A stretch of 21,339 nt of DNA from a bacterium. Lineage in GTDB: Bacteria; Lindowbacteria; 2-12-FULL-62-27. Shown piece by piece: positions 2,144-20,638 of this stretch; position 1 is the stretch's first letter; the number at the start of each line of letters is the position of its first letter. The stretch is from the NCBI GenBank assembly GCA_016202645.1, contig JACQOF010000024.1:1-21339 (forward strand), in the 5' to 3' direction. The position numbers and the translations under genes are program-made. The notes beneath the pieces were generated by a model. The model was not told the origin of the DNA and searched no databases. It worked only from the letters and a program-made list of their open reading frames with translations.

Positions 2144-4072
2144 ATGTCCATGACCAGTTTTCAAACGCAGACCATCGCCGACACGGACCGGCAGGATTGC
2201 AGGATTCTGCTGGTGGAGGACAATCCTGACGACGCGATCTTCATTCGGGAAATCCTGTCCCCGGATCTGGCCTTTGACGTCGTGTGGGTCACGACCCTCG
2301 CCAAGGCCGCCGGCATTCTGGACCACGTGACCTTTGCCGCCGCGCTCCTTGATCTCAGCCTGCCGGACAGCACCGGCATCGATACCGTCCGGCGGTTTCA
2401 CCAGGCCGCGCCGGACCTTCCCGTGATCGTCCTGACCGGCATGGAGAGCGAGACCCTGGGGATCGAGTCCATCCAAAACGGCGCGCAGGATTATCTTCAG
2501 AAGGGCTCCGCAGTCCGAGATTTTTTGCCGAGGGCCGTCCGCTACGCCATCCAGCGGGCGCAGATGCAGATTACCCTGAAGGAAAGCGAGGAGCGTTACC
2601 GCGATCTTTTCGACAACGCCGGGGACCTCATCTCCCTCACCACGCACGATGACCGCTTCCTCTACGTCAACCGCGCCTGGGAGACCGCCTTGGGATTCGG
2701 GACTCAGGAACTCGCCGCCATTTCGATGTCGGACATCATCCATCCGGACGACCAGGGCCGATGGCGGGACATGCGTCTCAAGGTCTGGGCCGGGCACGGC
2801 GAGGGACCCTTCGAAATCCGCTTCGTGCCGAAACGATCGGGCTGTGTGACGGTTGAAGCCCATCTCGGCCTCAATCTCAAGCGCGGCCGGGCGGACGCGA
2901 TCCGCGGGATTTTCATGGACATCACGGAACGAAAGCGGATGGAGAGCATGAAGGAGGAATTCATCGGGATCCTGTCCCACGAGCTTCGAAGCCCCCTCAC
3001 GGTCATCTGCGGCGCCATCGAGTCCCTCAAACCCTTCGATATCCCCCGGGAGCCGGACCGGCAGATGGAATTTTTGGGGATGATCGACCGCAACGCCGTG
3101 CGGCTCAACAAAACCATCGAGAATGTGCTCGCCCTCACGCGGCTTGAGTCGGGCAAAGCGCTCATTCACCGGCGCGCCCTGGACCTGGCGCCGCTTCTCT
3201 CCGAGGCCGTGGTCAACGCCCATGGACTGTCGGGGGGCCGCCCCATCCGGATCGACAAGGACGTCCCATCGGACCTGCCGCCCTGCCACGCCGACGGGGA
3301 AATGGTGATGCAGGTTCTCTCCAACCTGCTCAGCAACGCCATGCGGTTCGCCAAGTCCGCTGTCTGGGTGAAGGCGTGCGCCGATCCGGATGGCGTCCGG
3401 ATCAGCGTCATCGACGACGGCGACGGGATTCCCGGCGATCGCATGGGATCTCTCTTCGACAAATTCGTCCAAGTCAGCCGCAGCGCCGGCCGCTCGGGCG
3501 AATACAAAGGCACGGGACTGGGACTGGCCATCTGCAAGCTGATCGTCCGGGCGCATAAGGGAGACATCCGGGCGGAAAATTCGCCGGGGAAGGGCGCGGC
3601 GTTTCATGTCCGCCTGCCGGTCTACGATGAAGGGGTCGCTCTGAAGGAGGCGTTCGAAACCCTTCGCAATCATCCCGTCGGCAAGGTAAACCCCGTCTCC
3701 CTGATTCTCGTCACCCTTGAACGCCAGGAATCTGTCGAGGGAGCGCAGGTCGGCGGGGATGCCGACAAAATCCTCCGGCTCCTGGAAGAGCGCCTGAAGG
3801 ATGTCCTTCGGGAGCAGGACCGGATCGTCCGGACCGGACAACGGATCGCCATCCTGTCCGACACGGACCAGCAGGAGGCGGAACTCATCTGCAAACGGGT
3901 CATCCACAAACTGAAGCCCACCAAGCGGCAAAAATCCGATGTCACCGGGCCCCTCGTCGCGGTGGGCCGGGCGACCTATCCGGACGACGGAGGAAATGTT
4001 TCGGCTCTCCTCGATGCCGCCGCGCGCGAAAGACGCGCCATCCTGGAGATCGGGACGGATCCTTCGCCATGA
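2144..4072 (+). CDS. REC-PAS-histidine kinase with degenerate GGDEF-like C-terminus
   Basis: A 642-residue soluble protein. The receiver (about 19-135) has E25/D26, phospho-acceptor D70, T98 and K120. A PAS domain (about 150-265) ends in MDITERKRME. HisKA carries the H-box SHELRSPL (H279). HATPase (about 383-492) shows N-box NLLSNAMRFA, G1 DDGDGI, F FDKFVQ and G2 GTGLGLAICK. After the usual kinase end, residues about 510-635 follow the GGDEF pattern: a helix of about 30 residues ending REQDRIVR, the motif position as RTGQRIAIL (563-571) where RxGGDEFxxL is expected, TDQQEAELICKRV, then VAVGRATYPDDG. The catalytic GG(D/E)EF residues are gone, so cyclase activity is not expected. A GGGGGATAGG stretch just upstream serves as ribosome site. 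It overlaps the next gene by 4 nt (ATGA). Confidence 0.9.
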   Translation: MSMTSFQTQTIADTDRQDCRILLVEDNPDDAIFIREILSPDLAFDVVWVTTLAKAAGILDHVTFAAALLDLSLPDSTGIDTVRRFHQAAPDLPVIVLTGMESETLGIESIQNGAQDYLQKGSAVRDFLPRAVRYAIQRAQMQITLKESEERYRDLFDNAGDLISLTTHDDRFLYVNRAWETALGFGTQELAAISMSDIIHPDDQGRWRDMRLKVWAGHGEGPFEIRFVPKRSGCVTVEAHLGLNLKRGRADAIRGIFMDITERKRMESMKEEFIGILSHELRSPLTVICGAIESLKPFDIPREPDRQMEFLGMIDRNAVRLNKTIENVLALTRLESGKALIHRRALDLAPLLSEAVVNAHGLSGGRPIRIDKDVPSDLPPCHADGEMVMQVLSNLLSNAMRFAKSAVWVKACADPDGVRISVIDDGDGIPGDRMGSLFDKFVQVSRSAGRSGEYKGTGLGLAICKLIVRAHKGDIRAENSPGKGAAFHVRLPVYDEGVALKEAFETLRNHPVGKVNPVSLILVTLERQESVEGAQVGGDADKILRLLEERLKDVLREQDRIVRTGQRIAILSDTDQQEAELICKRVIHKLKPTKRQKSDVTGPLVAVGRATYPDDGGNVSALLDAAARERRAILEIGTDPSP

Positions 4073-5508
4073 ACCCCGCGGGCACGCCCGGGGGGACGAG
4101 ACCGGCGTGGCTCCGGCTCCAAGTCCGCGCCCTGGCGAGCCGCGTCCGGAAATGGGTGTCATTCCGGATTGATGTCGGCCTCACTCTCATTCTTCTGCCG
4201 GCCCTGCTGATCGCCGCGTCGCTCGGAGGACTCATCTACACCATCGACATGTCCTGGGAACAAAAAAATTATTCGAGAATGGTGTCCCTCGCGGCCCACC
4301 AACAGCTTCAGATTCAGCAGTACATCACGGACGCCCTGCTCGCCTCGCGGGGAGTCGCCGTCAATCTGGAAGATCGCCGGCGAAACATCGACCGGACGTT
4401 GGACTCGCTGATGAAGGGAAAGGCGCCGCCGCCGACGGAGGCGATCCGCGGCAAACTGGAGACCCAGCGCCGGCTCCTGGACTCCTTTTACCGTGAAACC
4501 GGGCGGCCGGAGGCGATGCTTGATCTGGGCCGCCAGCTGGACATTGTCGCCGGCGAAGCCGCTGGATTGTACCGTCTTCACGCCAACCAGCGCCTCACGC
4601 GCATGATCACGTACGAATCCCTCATCATCGGAAATCTCGTCCTCATCGCGGTCATTCTGACCTTTTACGCCCGGCGGGAACAAAGACAGCTCCAGGCGGA
4701 AATGAAAACCCGCCGGCGGATCATCTGGCAGCTCCGGCAGTCGGAGGAACAGATCCGCCGGGCCCGGGACGATTTGGAAACGCGGGTCGAAGAGCGGACC
4801 CGCGAACTCGAAACGCTCCTCTTCGTCATTTCGCACGACCTCAAGGAGCCCCTTCGAACCATCGAAAATTTTTCGACGCTTCTCTGCGAACGCTACGCGG
4901 ACCGCCTGGACGATAAGGCGAAAAAATTCCTCGGATACATGACCGGCGGCGTCGACCGGATTCACCGGCTCCTCGACGACATCCTGACCCTGTCCCGCGC
5001 TAGAAAAATGGGCGGGGACCGGCAGGACACCCCGGGCGAGGCGATCGTCGGGGAGGCGCTGACGCGGCTGGAGGGAAAAATCAAACGGGCCGGCGCGCGG
5101 TTCAATCTGGAACCCGGTCTGCCGGTTCTGCGGGTCGACAAGACTTGGGCGGTGGAAGCTCTCTACAATCTGCTGGCCAACGCCCTGAAATTTACAATAG
5201 ACGGTGCCGCGCCCGACATCGAAATCGGCGCCTTTCGGGCGGATCCGGCGCGCGGTCCGGGGCGGGAGGCCGGCTTTGTCGTCCGGGATCGCGGGCCCGG
5301 AGTCCCCGCGGACCAGGCGGAACGGATTTTTCAACTTTTCCAGAGGGGCGTCGGCCGGGAAGTGGAAGGTACGGGCGCAGGTCTCGCCATCGTCCGGCAA
5401 ATTGCCTTGAATCACGGGGGCCGAACCTGGGTCGAACCCCGGGAGGGCGGCGGCTCGGCCTTTTATCTGACGTTTCTCTCTCCGGAGGAACCGGGGGCCG
5501 TGTCATGA
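4069..5508 (+). CDS. Two-TM membrane sensor histidine kinase (Cph1-type HisKA)
   Basis: A 479-residue inner-membrane sensor kinase. Transmembrane helices lie at about 36-58 (LTLILLPALLIAASLGGLIY) and 183-200. The roughly 125 residues between them would face the periplasm and are mostly helical, with no domain I can name. A coiled coil (about 205-250) leads to a HisKA of the HDLKEPLRTI type (H256), seen in phytochrome-like kinases. HATPase has N-box NLLANALKFT, G1 DRGPGV, F FQLFQRG and G2 GTGAGLAIVRQ. It is translationally coupled on both sides: it starts 4 nt inside the upstream kinase gene, and its stop overlaps the ATG of the Rcp1-like regulator. That makes the downstream regulator the likely phosphorylation partner (inference from coupling and from the Cph1/Rcp1 family pairing). 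Confidence 0.92.
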   Translation: MNPAGTPGGTRPAWLRLQVRALASRVRKWVSFRIDVGLTLILLPALLIAASLGGLIYTIDMSWEQKNYSRMVSLAAHQQLQIQQYITDALLASRGVAVNLEDRRRNIDRTLDSLMKGKAPPPTEAIRGKLETQRRLLDSFYRETGRPEAMLDLGRQLDIVAGEAAGLYRLHANQRLTRMITYESLIIGNLVLIAVILTFYARREQRQLQAEMKTRRRIIWQLRQSEEQIRRARDDLETRVEERTRELETLLFVISHDLKEPLRTIENFSTLLCERYADRLDDKAKKFLGYMTGGVDRIHRLLDDILTLSRARKMGGDRQDTPGEAIVGEALTRLEGKIKRAGARFNLEPGLPVLRVDKTWAVEALYNLLANALKFTIDGAAPDIEIGAFRADPARGPGREAGFVVRDRGPGVPADQAERIFQLFQRGVGREVEGTGAGLAIVRQIALNHGGRTWVEPREGGGSAFYLTFLSPEEPGAVS

Positions 5509-6038
5509 CGTCGCTCTTTTTGGACATCCTCCTCGTGGACGACAGCGACACGGACGTCGAGATCATCCGGGAAGCCATTTCCGAAATTCAAAACGGCCGG
5601 CCGGGCGTACAGGGAAGTCCAGTCCCCAACGCGTCAGTCTCAGGAAATTCCAGGAGGGAATTTCCCTCATTGCGCGTTGGGGGCGTGACGGTAAACGCGG
5701 TCCGGGACGGCGATGAGGCCCTGAAATATCTCCGACGGGAAGGCCCTTACGCGGACAAACCCCAACCCCGCTTGATGATCCTCGACATCAACATGCCGAA
5801 GAAAACCGGCTTCGAGATCCTGCGGATTCTGAAATCGGATCCGGTCCTGAAATCCCTGCCGGTGATTATTCTGACCACCAGCCGGCGTCCGCAGGACGTT
5901 CGGATGGCCTATGAGGAAGGCGCCGCGTCCTACATCGTCAAGCCCCTCAAATACGCCGACCTCCGGGAAGTTCTGGCGACGGCCCTGAAATACTGGAACC
6001 GGGTATGCCTCCTGCCGGATCCGCCCGAGGGAGATTGA
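5505..6038 (+). CDS. Rcp1-like single-domain response regulator with an in-frame insertion
   Basis: A 177-residue receiver of the Rcp1 type, recognised by VRDGDEALKYLRREGPYAD, the acceptor segment LMILDINMPKKTG (D94), LTTSR (T124/T125) and K146. The acidic pocket is D12/D13. The start is the ATG at 5505 that overlaps the kinase stop (ATGA). Extending the reading frame upstream would run through the kinase gene, so it is rejected. Residues about 31-60, between helix 1 and strand 2, are extra relative to the family, where about 20 fewer to 30 fewer residues separate these elements. The insert is encoded by a palindromic DNA element (5624-5682). It should extend a surface loop away from the active site. 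No output domain is present. Confidence 0.9.
   Translation: MTSLFLDILLVDDSDTDVEIIREAISEIQNGRPGVQGSPVPNASVSGNSRREFPSLRVGGVTVNAVRDGDEALKYLRREGPYADKPQPRLMILDINMPKKTGFEILRILKSDPVLKSLPVIILTTSRRPQDVRMAYEEGAASYIVKPLKYADLREVLATALKYWNRVCLLPDPPEGD
5624..5682. repeat. Palindromic element inserted in frame within a receiver gene
   Basis: The outer arms ccccaacgcg (5624-5633) and cgcgttgggg (5673-5682) are exact reverse complements. Inside them ggaaattcc (5643-5651) pairs with ggaatttcc (5657-5665). The 59 bp encode about 20 residues that the receiver family lacks. The surrounding frame is preserved. Confidence 0.75.
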
Positions 6039-6531: not shown

Positions 6532-6560
6532 ACCTATTGACGGCAGTGTATTCAAATTCA

Positions 6561-6644
6561 CCTCTTCCCCCCTTGAGGGGGAAGCCGGATGGGGGGTTTC
6601 CGAGTGGAGTTCCCCCCTCCCAACCTCCCCCTCAAGGGGGGAGG
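6561..6644. repeat. C/G-rich bipartite palindrome, copy A
   Basis: Left hairpin cctcttccccccttgagg..., then gatggggggt, a roughly 15-bp centre, cccccctccc, and the right hairpin cctccccctcaagg.... The two halves are also complementary to each other, so the whole unit is a long palindrome. The same family recurs at 11456-11553 and 18694-18795, with a half copy at 1374. It lies 29 bp after the pilin stop. 6532-6734 holds no gene. Confidence 0.85.
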
Positions 6645-6681
6645 ATGAAATTAGAAATGCCGAGGTCAATAAAAAGATGAA

Positions 6682-7712: not shown

Positions 7713-9542
<1,830 letters not shown>

Positions 9543-9609
9543 TTCACTTCAAAATAGAATGCCGGCAGTACACCCGCCTTTCTCCCTCTCTCCCTTTCTC
9601 CCTCTCTCC

Positions 9610-10296
9610 CTACAGAGATTTAAGGCGGATCAGGCATTCCCGGACGGCGGCGTTGCCCGGACTGATTCTCAGAAAAGTTTCCAGCCGCGAAATGGCTTCG
9701 GGGACGAATTCCTGTTCCAGAAGGACGTCCGCGAGGAGGATGACGGCGTCGGTGTAGTCGGGCTTCACGGCCAGCGCCGATTCCAGAAATCGGGCCGCAT
9801 CCGTGGGGCGGCCGCATTCCTGGGCCGCACAGCCGGCCAGGTACAGCGCATAGGCGTTGCCCGGATCGATCTCGATCGCGCCACCCAGCGCCTCCAGCGC
9901 TTTCGCCGGTTCCTCCATGTGCCGGTACGTGATCCCAAGATTCAGCCGCGGCTGGAGGAGCCGCGGATTGCTCCGGACCGCGCGGTTCAGAAACGGAAGC
10001 GCGATGGCATGGCGGCCGTGATTGGAATGCAGGGCCCCGACGTTCGTGAGACATTCGGCGTGTTCGGGATTATGTTTCAGCGCAAGCGAGTAGTATTTCA
10101 AGGCCTCGTCGGGGTTTTTTTGGAGATCGGAAATCACACCAAGATTGTAGTACGCGTCGGCAAACCGGGGCGCCGCCTCCGTAACTTTCAGAAACAGCCC
10201 TTTGGCGTCGTCCAGCCTCCCGCCCCGCAAAGCCGCCACCGCATCCCGGATCCAATCGTTTACGCGCGTAGATGCCGTTTCTCGTTCGTCGGGCAT
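9610..10296 (-). CDS. TPR-repeat protein
   Basis: A 228-residue protein made of about six tetratricopeptide repeats, roughly at 13-46, 47-79, 80-113, 114-147, 148-181 and 182-215. Each has the spacing of W/L, G/A, Y/F and A positions (for example ADAYYNLGVISDLQKNPDEALKYYS). TPR arrays form superhelical protein-binding scaffolds. No signal peptide, membrane segment or enzymatic domain is visible, so the partner is unknown. I start at the ATG at 10296 (MPDERET). The open frame continues 21 codons upstream, but those are encoded by the pyrimidine repeat (FLPFSLSPFLPP) and look non-biological. The gene sits between two copies of the same hairpin repeat and is convergent with typA and divergent from dusB. 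Confidence 0.85.
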   Translation of the reverse strand: MPDERETASTRVNDWIRDAVAALRGGRLDDAKGLFLKVTEAAPRFADAYYNLGVISDLQKNPDEALKYYSLALKHNPEHAECLTNVGALHSNHGRHAIALPFLNRAVRSNPRLLQPRLNLGITYRHMEEPAKALEALGGAIEIDPGNAYALYLAGCAAQECGRPTDAARFLESALAVKPDYTDAVILLADVLLEQEFVPEAISRLETFLRISPGNAAVRECLIRLKSL

Positions 10297-10314
10297 GTGT
10301 GCGCAGAGTAGCTT

Positions 10315-10425
10315 ATTGGGAGGGAGAAAGGGAGAGAGGGAGAAAGGGAGAAAGTACAAATCCGTTCAAAGCAGAAATGCTGCGGTAATCCCGCCTATCT
10401 CCCTATCTCCCTTTCTCCCTCCCAA
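10315..10425. repeat. Purine/pyrimidine hairpin repeat, copy 2
   Basis: The ends attgggagggagaaaggga (10315-10333) and its exact reverse complement (10407-10425) form a 19-bp perfect terminal match. The centre (10355-10395) aligns with the centre of copy 1 at 9501-9611. It lies in the divergent space between the TPR gene (minus) and dusB (plus), where promoters for both would be expected. Confidence 0.82.
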
Positions 10426-10442
10426 TCATGTAGACTCCCAAC

Positions 10443-11459
10443 ATGAACGCGTTGATGTTGAAGACGCTGACCATCGGGCCGGCGGTAATGCAGTCACCCA
10501 TGTCCGGGTGGACCGATCTGCCGTTCCGGCTGATCGCCCGGGAGAAGGGAGCCGGATTCGCGTTTCTCGAGATGATTCTCGCTGACGCGGTCGTCGCTTC
10601 ATCGGACCGGACCTTCGACCGGATGCAGACCCTGCCGGAGGACCGGCCCCTCGGGGCGCAGCTGGTCGGCTACACGCCCGAGTCCATCGCGGCCGCCGCG
10701 CGGATTCTGGAGGAATCCGGCGTGGACCTCATCGATCTCAATTTCGGCTGTCCGGTTCCGAAAGTCACCTGCAAGGGCGGAGGGTCGGCGATGCTGAGGG
10801 ACCCGGACCTCGCCCGGGACATTTTCCGGGAGACCGTCTCGGCGGTCTCGGCCGTTCCGGTCACGGTCAAGATGCGTCTGGGATACGACGACCCGAGCGG
10901 GGACGAGGCGCTTGGGATCGCGAAGATCGCGGAGGATTGCGGGATCGCCGCTGTGACGATCCACGGCCGGAGCCGCAGGCAGGGATATAGCGGCGAGGCG
11001 GATTATGCGGCGATCGGCCGGATCAAACAGGGGATCGGTATCCCCGTCATCGGCAACGGCGACGTGACTGACGGCGCACGGGCGCGGCGTCTTCTGGAAA
11101 TCAGCGGCTGTGACGGCATCATGATCGGCCGCGGCGGCATCGGATATCCGTGGATTTATCGCGAGGTCGCCGCCGCCCTCGCGGGTCTTCCACAACCGGC
11201 GCCTCCGGATTCCGAGGAGGTCCGGTCCACGCTCCTGCGCCACATCGATCTTCAGATCCAATACACGCCCCGCCAGGCACATCTTCTCCTGCGCCGCATC
11301 GCCTGCGGATACTTCAAACGACTCCCGGGCGCGGCGGAATACCGCGCGCGGATCAACGCGGCCGCCAGCGTCGCGGAAATCCGGCGAATCGTCGAGGAAC
11401 TTTCGCCGCACTTCAGCCATCAGCCATGTTCCAGATTCCCGTCGGTTCATTCAAAGTAA
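10443..11459 (+). CDS. dusB: tRNA-dihydrouridine synthase (DusB-like)
   Basis: A 338-residue FMN-dependent TIM barrel that reduces specific uridines in tRNA to dihydrouridine. The Dus signature DLNFGCPVPKV holds the conserved Cys (C103). Other family blocks are PMSGWTDLPFR, VTVKMRLGYDD (K143), VTIHGRSRRQGYSG (H174), PVIGNGDV and GIMIGRGGIGYPWI (flavin-phosphate site). The C-terminal helical tRNA-binding domain is present (about 245-320). The start ATG at 10443 has no clear ribosome site, and the ATG at 10455 is an alternative. The stop TAA (11457-11459) lies within the end of a C/G-rich palindrome, and the last residues (QPCSRFPSVHSK) are not family-like, so the native terminus may have been altered. 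Assignment to DusB rather than DusA/C rests on overall resemblance. Confidence 0.93.
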   Translation: MNALMLKTLTIGPAVMQSPMSGWTDLPFRLIAREKGAGFAFLEMILADAVVASSDRTFDRMQTLPEDRPLGAQLVGYTPESIAAAARILEESGVDLIDLNFGCPVPKVTCKGGGSAMLRDPDLARDIFRETVSAVSAVPVTVKMRLGYDDPSGDEALGIAKIAEDCGIAAVTIHGRSRRQGYSGEADYAAIGRIKQGIGIPVIGNGDVTDGARARRLLEISGCDGIMIGRGGIGYPWIYREVAAALAGLPQPAPPDSEEVRSTLLRHIDLQIQYTPRQAHLLLRRIACGYFKRLPGAAEYRARINAAASVAEIRRIVEELSPHFSHQPCSRFPSVHSK

Positions 11460-11553
11460 CCTCTTCCCCCCGTTTGGGGGGAAGCTGGATGGGGGGATTT
11501 TCCGAGAGATGTACCCCCCTCCCAACCTCCCCCTCAAGGGGGGAGGAGGTTAC
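11456..11553. repeat. C/G-rich bipartite palindrome, copy B (between dusB and maf)
   Basis: Perfect termini gtaacctc (11456-11463) and gaggttac (11546-11553) bracket the same two-hairpin unit as copies A and C. It contains the stop codon of dusB at its left end and a ggaggaggt stretch at its right end that resembles a ribosome site for maf. An ATG inside the unit (11509) opens the longest possible maf frame. Confidence 0.85.
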
Positions 11554-11571
11554 TTCACCGAAGACCGTCGT

Positions 11572-16423: not shown

Positions 16424-16537
16424 GTTACTATTCAGTCCTCTCCGTCATTCCCGCGAAAGCGTCCGCCTAAGGCGGACAGTCTGCATGGCGATGGTCTGGA
16501 TTCCCGCTTTCGCGGGAATGACGACCTGAATAGTTAC
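16424..16537. repeat. dRS3-like palindromic element, copy 1 (with long outer arms)
   Basis: The outer arms gttactattcag (16424-16435) and ctgaatagttac (16526-16537) pair with one mismatch. Within are gtcattcccgcgaaagcg and its inverted mate ctttcgcgggaatgac, plus a small palindrome gtccgcctaaggcggac. The core word resembles the attcccN8gggaat of Neisseria dRS3 repeats, although this is a different lineage. It fills the divergent space between the PAS-kinase and the membrane protein gene. Confidence 0.8.
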
Positions 16538-18693: not shown

Positions 18694-18795
18694 AACTCTT
18701 CCCCCCTTGAGGGGGAAGCTGGATGGGGGGTATCCATCAAAATTGCGCCAATGCGGCACCCCCCTCCCAGCCTCCCCCTCAAGGGGGGAGGAGTT
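18694..18795. repeat. C/G-rich bipartite palindrome, copy C
   Basis: Outer ends aactc (18694-18698) and gagtt (18791-18795) match each other, as gtaacctc/gaggttac match in copy B, although the two copies differ in these bases. Inside are the left hairpin ttccccccttgagggggaa, gatgggggg, a roughly 30-bp centre, cacccccctccc and the right hairpin cctccccctcaagg.... Confidence 0.85.
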
Positions 18796-19249: not shown

Positions 19250-19255
19250 AAGGTC

Positions 19256-19378
19256 GTCATTCCCGCGAAAGCGGGAATCCAGTCACATCGTCATTCCCGC
19301 GAAAGCGGGAATCCAGACTAATCGCAAAGCAATCTGGATTCCCGCTTTCGCGGGAATGACGGAGAGGGCTGAATAGTG
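19256..19378. repeat. dRS3-like palindromic element, copy 2 (three units)
   Basis: Two direct units gtcattcccgcgaaagcggg... at 19256-19282 and 19290-19316 are followed by an inverted unit at 19334-19360. The right flank ggagagggctgaatagtgac is the reverse complement (near-exact) of the left flank of copy 1, so the mobile unit extends beyond the core word. The GTG start of the next gene is the last codon-sized piece of this flank. Confidence 0.85.
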
Positions 19379-20500: not shown

Positions 20501-20519
20501 ATAAAAAGCGCCGCTCTCC

Positions 20520-20638
20520 GTCATTCCTGCGAAAGCGGGAATCCAGCTTGGTTTGCAATTGTTTTTGATGCACACCGGAGTTCACCCCGTGCTGGATTCC
20601 CGCTTTCGCGGGAATGACGAACACAGGCGGGAATGACA
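20520..20638. repeat. dRS3-like palindromic element, copy 3
   Basis: A direct unit (20520-20546, with one change, cctgcg for cccgcg) and an inverted unit (20592-20618) form a long hairpin. A partial third unit, ggcgggaatgac, is at 20627-20638. It lies between the convergent ends of the kinase gene and the rRNA operon. Nothing else is seen in 20501-20651. Confidence 0.85.

Follow-up and report, generated by a model that had tools for sequence, protein, structure and literature searches.

What is a palindrome doing inside the receiver domain of a response regulator? In the window analyzed here, the 21,339 nucleotides of a Lindowbacteria contig (JACQOF010000024.1), the gene for an Rcp1-like regulator carries an in-frame segment that its relatives lack and whose DNA can fold into hairpins. 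We consider it very probable that this segment is one copy of a non-autonomous two-hairpin mobile element, here called class A, that has spread recently and is read through in genes. The features that bear on this reading are collected in Table 1.

Table 1. The class A copy, its host gene and the neighboring kinase gene in the window, with the loci at which the sister class B adjoins tRNA genes
Feature	Position or locus	Strand	Basis
Histidine kinase gene, likely partner of the regulator	4069..5508	+	upstream; its stop overlaps the regulator start by four bases
Host gene, Rcp1-like response regulator, 177 aa	5505..6038	+	PF00072; PDB relatives; model
Complete unit of the putative mobile element, class A, 78 bp = 26 codons	5607..5684	+	boundaries from 47 aligned copies
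Left mini-hairpin, consensus GGACA-GGGA-TGTCC	5607..5620	+	alignment, pair counts
Main palindrome, outer arms CCCCAACGCG / CGCGTTGGGG	5624..5682	+	sequence, folding
Inner hairpin GGAAATTCC-AGGAG-GGAATTTCC, perfect 9-bp stem	5643..5665	+	pair counts
Class B at tRNAs, genome G001	L142, L144, L146, L150, L152, L154, L188		
Class B at tRNAs, host genome	L171/L179		

The encoded protein has the receiver fold with the acidic pocket, phosphorylated Asp and Lys that define Rcp1-like regulators, and D13, D94 and K146 do not vary when it is aligned with the other receiver domains of the window, which agrees with the original prediction that the catalytic residues are kept despite the insert. Ten homologues of the regulator from other genomes all show a 29-column gap at the insert (10/10), and the segment is absent from all three PDB relatives (RcpA, RcpB and Rcp1), so that none of these homologues carries the same loop and the predicted absence of roughly 30 residues from the family holds. 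The unit itself accounts for 26 of the 29 extra residues, the other 3 probably being ordinary length variation. A loop that is unique to this regulator family or conserved in it was considered and ruled out, since the homologues lack it. When viral relatives of the regulator were looked for, none came up.

An AlphaFold2 model of the regulator, for which the window's own receiver domains served as alignment input, has a normal receiver fold (pTM 0.76), which in a structure comparison resembles CheY and RcpA/Rcp1 with Z scores of about 18 (RcpA 1k68: Z 18.5, rmsd 2.5, 137 aligned); all matches listed there are receiver domains and bear on the fold, not on the loop. Residues 37-48 have pLDDT <50, and residues 31-55 are without assigned secondary structure. 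This low-confidence loop sits after the helix formed by residues 15-30 and before the strands that follow, and the predicted location between helix 1 and strand 2, next to the kinase-contact helix, is thus topologically right in the model. As modeled, the insert is most likely a tolerated flexible passenger loop.

At the DNA level, the outer arms of the main palindrome (5624-5633 and 5673-5682) pair perfectly over 10 bp, and the stretch has a folding energy of -43.6 kcal/mol against a mean of -22.7 in 200 dinucleotide shuffles, none of which is equally stable (z = -6.6; 0/200). The palindrome, its perfect arms and its frame within the regulator were therefore correctly described at the outset, but its 59 bp are only the core of the repeated unit, which is 78 bp long and includes the left mini-hairpin. 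This hairpin lies outside the 59 bp first noted, and in the window copy it has partly decayed, to GTACAGGGAAGTCC. Class A as a whole is laid out as a left mini-hairpin, an outer stem and an inner stem, with the consensus GGACAGGGATGTCC(A/T)GTCCCC...GGGGGC, mostly preceded by GGC and mostly followed by GG; the insertion point in the regulator gene is directly after GGC (5604-5606). A search of Rfam 15 with the unit gave no family above its gathering score.

The host genome (2.9 Mb, GC-rich, 82% complete, in 146 contigs) proved to be rich in this unit. Searching it with the palindrome returned about 40 strong further matches, and a profile search of the retrieved loci raised the further copies to about 50. 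A covariance model built from 38 distinct copies, whose E-values are rough, matched the window unit at C142:5605-5686 with 95.3 bits and returned 58 hits from the host genome, including a few on the sister class described below, 11 from the nearest relative compared, a genome of the same family (G001), and none from a further genome (G002). With about 50 further copies found by profile and covariance model, the unit is not the single-copy sequence that would have spoken against a mobile element. The identity of 15 copies at 99-100% to one consensus points to recent spread; the window copy is older, its nearest copies being 91% identical to it.

The hairpins of class A covary, and their structure is conserved as well as their sequence. 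When the 38 distinct copies are aligned, every cell of the inner helix is paired (100%), and three of its pairs have changed on both sides. Over the whole structure there are 44 double-change cells, a number that no shuffle reaches (mean 13; 0/500) and that collapses once the partners are slid by one to three columns. The outer stem is only 84% paired across copies because one large subfamily has three central non-pairs. Some copies have altered forms. At L131 (1549-1597; C99:41448-41496), a shortened class A unit is missing the inner hairpin and is 33 bp shorter, leaving 45 bp, a length that is likewise divisible by three; it lies in frame close to the start of a protein. At L133 (C106:121493-121592) and L130 (C48:33687-33782), a class A copy is fused to the head or tail of a second one, which looks like an insertion of one copy into the other.

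How these copies relate to genes was assessed for 54 of them, classed by the open frame that spans the copy and by a codon-usage score on both sides; the score is home-made and trained on the window's genes, and the frame assignments given here rest partly on it. By this measure, at least 31 of the 54 copies are internal to coding frames (28 pass the threshold, and for the window regulator, RibF and one hybrid kinase the assignment comes from domains or structure), 13 lie at protein ends or edges, and 10 are unclear or intergenic. Hosts with Pfam domains around or across the insert include LeuRS, ValRS, an E2 acyltransferase, riboflavin kinase (RibF), GcvT, RecG, CbiB, NAD-glutamate dehydrogenase, transketolase, a UvrD-like helicase, a glutaredoxin-reductase fusion and several sensor kinases, and some of the interrupted genes are essential.

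An indication that these copies are translated comes from their frames. The internal copies are distributed as 9/4/10 over the sense frames and 7/1/0 over the antisense frames, and the only frame that none of them uses is interrupted by a stop in 46 of 47 copies, the five others all being used. Translation predicts a stop-bearing frame without any internal copy, and skipping does not. A mechanism that removes or skips the insert at the RNA or ribosome level, by splicing or translational bypassing, would leave a protein without the loop; the strong structure and uniform length of the unit speak for it, and bypassed palindromes in coding genes are known from Magnusiomyces mitochondria, as mentioned in a citation within PMC6649704. 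Were all frames hit with equal probability, however, the 31 internal copies would all miss the stop frame in only about (5/6)^31 = 0.4% of cases, and the length is a multiple of three in the 45-bp variant too, so that skipping appears highly improbable. In-gene copies are probably translated as an extra 26-amino-acid loop; we infer that this peptide is made and that the loops are near neutral.

Orthologues and solved homologues of several hosts have an empty site. For the LeuRS orthologue in G001, the match covers query residues 375-489 and 516-631 on adjoining DNA (220936|220937), and since the two segments are contiguous in the G001 DNA, exactly 26 residues are absent. This is the only empty site that is exact at both the protein and the DNA level. 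For E2, a solved homologue passes from residue 465 to 467 of its chain where the query passes from 101 to 127, and solved homologues of RibF and ValRS are likewise without the insert segment. The difference in RecG is about 33 residues, not 26.

A further possibility is recruitment: the hairpin would serve the host at the level of mRNA or protein, for instance in RNA stability or kinase specificity, and selection would maintain it. The conserved pairing and the fact that the window copy, for all its age, is still open would both suit recruitment, but descent from source elements that were themselves structured can also explain the pairing, the host proteins have unrelated functions, the peptide is read in five different frames, and the left mini-hairpin has decayed in the very copy that raised the question. 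We regard recruitment as unlikely. According to the reading of a mobile element translated in place, the length of 78 bp, divisible by three, and the lack of stops in five of the six frames would let an in-gene insertion be translated as a flexible loop of 26 residues, and copies would survive where the protein tolerates the loop.

The boundaries of the unit also bear on how it might move. Class A would insert at its target consensus, GGC^GG, adding exactly 78 bp without a target-site duplication: no duplication rises above shuffled pairing at any boundary tried. The unit has no terminal inverted repeats, its ends being GGACAGGG and GGGGGC. These two properties disfavor DDE transposition, and although a short, dispersed, structured and non-autonomous unit is what a classical MITE of a DDE transposase looks like, we think this origin improbable. 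They fit single-strand HUH chemistry, without proving it. Mobility could instead proceed through hairpins in single-stranded DNA with an enzyme acting in trans, and this enzyme may possibly be of the IS200/IS605-RAYT (HUH) kind, a suggestion we make with some reserve.

Candidates for such an enzyme are present. The host genome encodes ten Y1_Tnp proteins whose best NCBIfam match is the REP-associated tyrosine transposase, all below the curated cut-off. The ten RAYT-like Y1 transposase genes (L109-L118) are diverse, about 290-330 codons long with stop-free matches, and nearly all are without a palindromic element nearby. No class A copy was found at the ends of transposase genes, and the class B model gave nothing convincing across 24 Y1_Tnp loci from three genomes, of which one, L112, adjoins a related hairpin beside a tRNA-Arg gene. 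RAYT genes flanking the elements were thus essentially absent among the loci checked.

Among the matches of the class A model there is also a divergent group, class B, which shares the two-hairpin design (ATACAGGGATGTAT...GTCCC...GGGAC, some 82-86 nt in the alignment) and is a putative mobile sister class. Six class B copies in G001 start at a tRNA 3' end, 0-2 nt from the discriminator base of the gene (tRNA-Leu, Lys, Arg, Trp, Leu and Lys), two more abut tRNA 5' ends in antisense (tRNA-Gly in G001 and tRNA-Glu in the host genome), and at tRNAs the left mini-hairpin always faces the tRNA. Five other copies start right after a T-run (L148, L185, L186, L189 and L191), three of them (L186, L189 and L191) preceded by a strong terminator-like hairpin. 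No tRNAs were found in the flanks of class A in 53 loci scanned. The left stem tracks the target, being mostly (A/G)TAC at tRNAs, (A/G)TCC after T-runs and GGAC in class A. A tentative extension, which we hold to be rather doubtful, is that a single lineage-specific two-hairpin family has split into target-specialized classes whose insertion sites are set by pairing inside the element itself, as in an undescribed reprogrammable single-strand (HUH) or RNA-end-directed mobility system; one class would then enter genes at GGC^GG as translated inserts, and the other would dock at tRNA ends and downstream of intrinsic terminators.

A third palindromic class, GTCCCCGGAGC...AACCAGGGATGGTGAGC...GCGGAGGGGAC, occurs in tandem with class B at L172, L186 and L190, and a hairpin related to it lies at about 2010-2055 of L112, between the tRNA-Arg and the RAYT-like gene.

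The distribution of the element is narrow. An exact scan for the left end over 84,980 GTDB species matched only Candidatus Lindowbacteria, on a sole contig (MFPR01000004.1 of Candidatus Lindowbacteria bacterium RIFCSPLOWO2_12_FULL_62_27) where the match is the same sequence as the G001 copy L063. Neither the class A sequence nor the class B model matched anything in the 57 genomes searched outside the group. Carriage by phages or plasmids finds no support: neither gave a match to the element, and a scan of viral contigs did not find the exact left-end pattern.

Among known systems, the closest parallel in behavior is that of the Rickettsia palindromic elements (RPEs), which lie in frame in conserved genes in several frames, leave guanylate kinase active, measure 105-146 bp and are presumed selfish, with the mobilizing enzyme unknown (PMC2229807). 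Class A shares with RPEs and the protein-coding palindromes of Wolbachia the dispersed, multi-copy, in-frame insertion into conserved genes. It differs in its 78-bp length, its GGC^GG target and its extra left mini-hairpin; it is found only in Lindowbacteria, whereas the RPE hosts are obligate intracellular alphaproteobacteria; and it has no sequence relation to RPEs as far as the left-end scan of 84,980 species can tell. The likeness first proposed therefore stands for the phenomenon and fails for sequence family and length.

Other families share other traits. Enterobacterial ERIC/IRU (127 bp) and Yersinia YPAL/RU-2 (about 168 bp) have open frames that are sometimes fused in frame to genes (PMC2229807), and class A is likewise a small non-autonomous repeat with open frames, but YPAL makes target-site duplications and class A makes none. 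DDE-type MITEs are recognized by target-site duplications and terminal inverted repeats, and class A has neither. REP/RAYT systems resemble it in being short hairpin repeats, some of them intragenic (intragenic GTAG- and CGTC-tagged REPs are known; PMC3733652), in a genome with RAYT-like genes. The class A unit, however, has no terminal GTAG or CGTC tag beside its hairpin, it does not flank the RAYT genes, and it is mostly intragenic where REPs are mostly extragenic.

The window contains other repeats as well. Copies of CGTCATTCCCGCGAAAGCGGGAATCC form head-to-head pairs at 16438-16523, 19254-19361 and 20514-20619 that look like CGTC-tagged REPs (family per PMC3733652). A dispersed intergenic palindrome, CCCCCCTCCC..CCTCCCCCTCAAGGGGGGAGGA, occurs partly as inverted pairs at 1353-1407, 6555-6645, 11493-11555 and 18694-18795, and purine-rich AGGGAGAAAGGGAGAGAGGG stretches in both orientations (9504-9604 and 10298-10443) lie around the gene at 9610-10359.

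Gene-internal translated palindromes have so far been reported chiefly from Rickettsia and Wolbachia, whose members are obligate intracellular bacteria. That an unrelated family occurs in dozens of genes, those of tRNA synthetases among them, in an uncultured lineage with a GC-rich genome of 2.9 Mb suggests that the rise of selfish DNA that adds peptides to proteins is a recurrent event. With its near-identical copies, its defined target and a sister class that adjoins tRNAs, the family offers a handle on how such elements move, and class A amounts to a natural test of the sites at which a protein can accept 26 additional residues as a loop.
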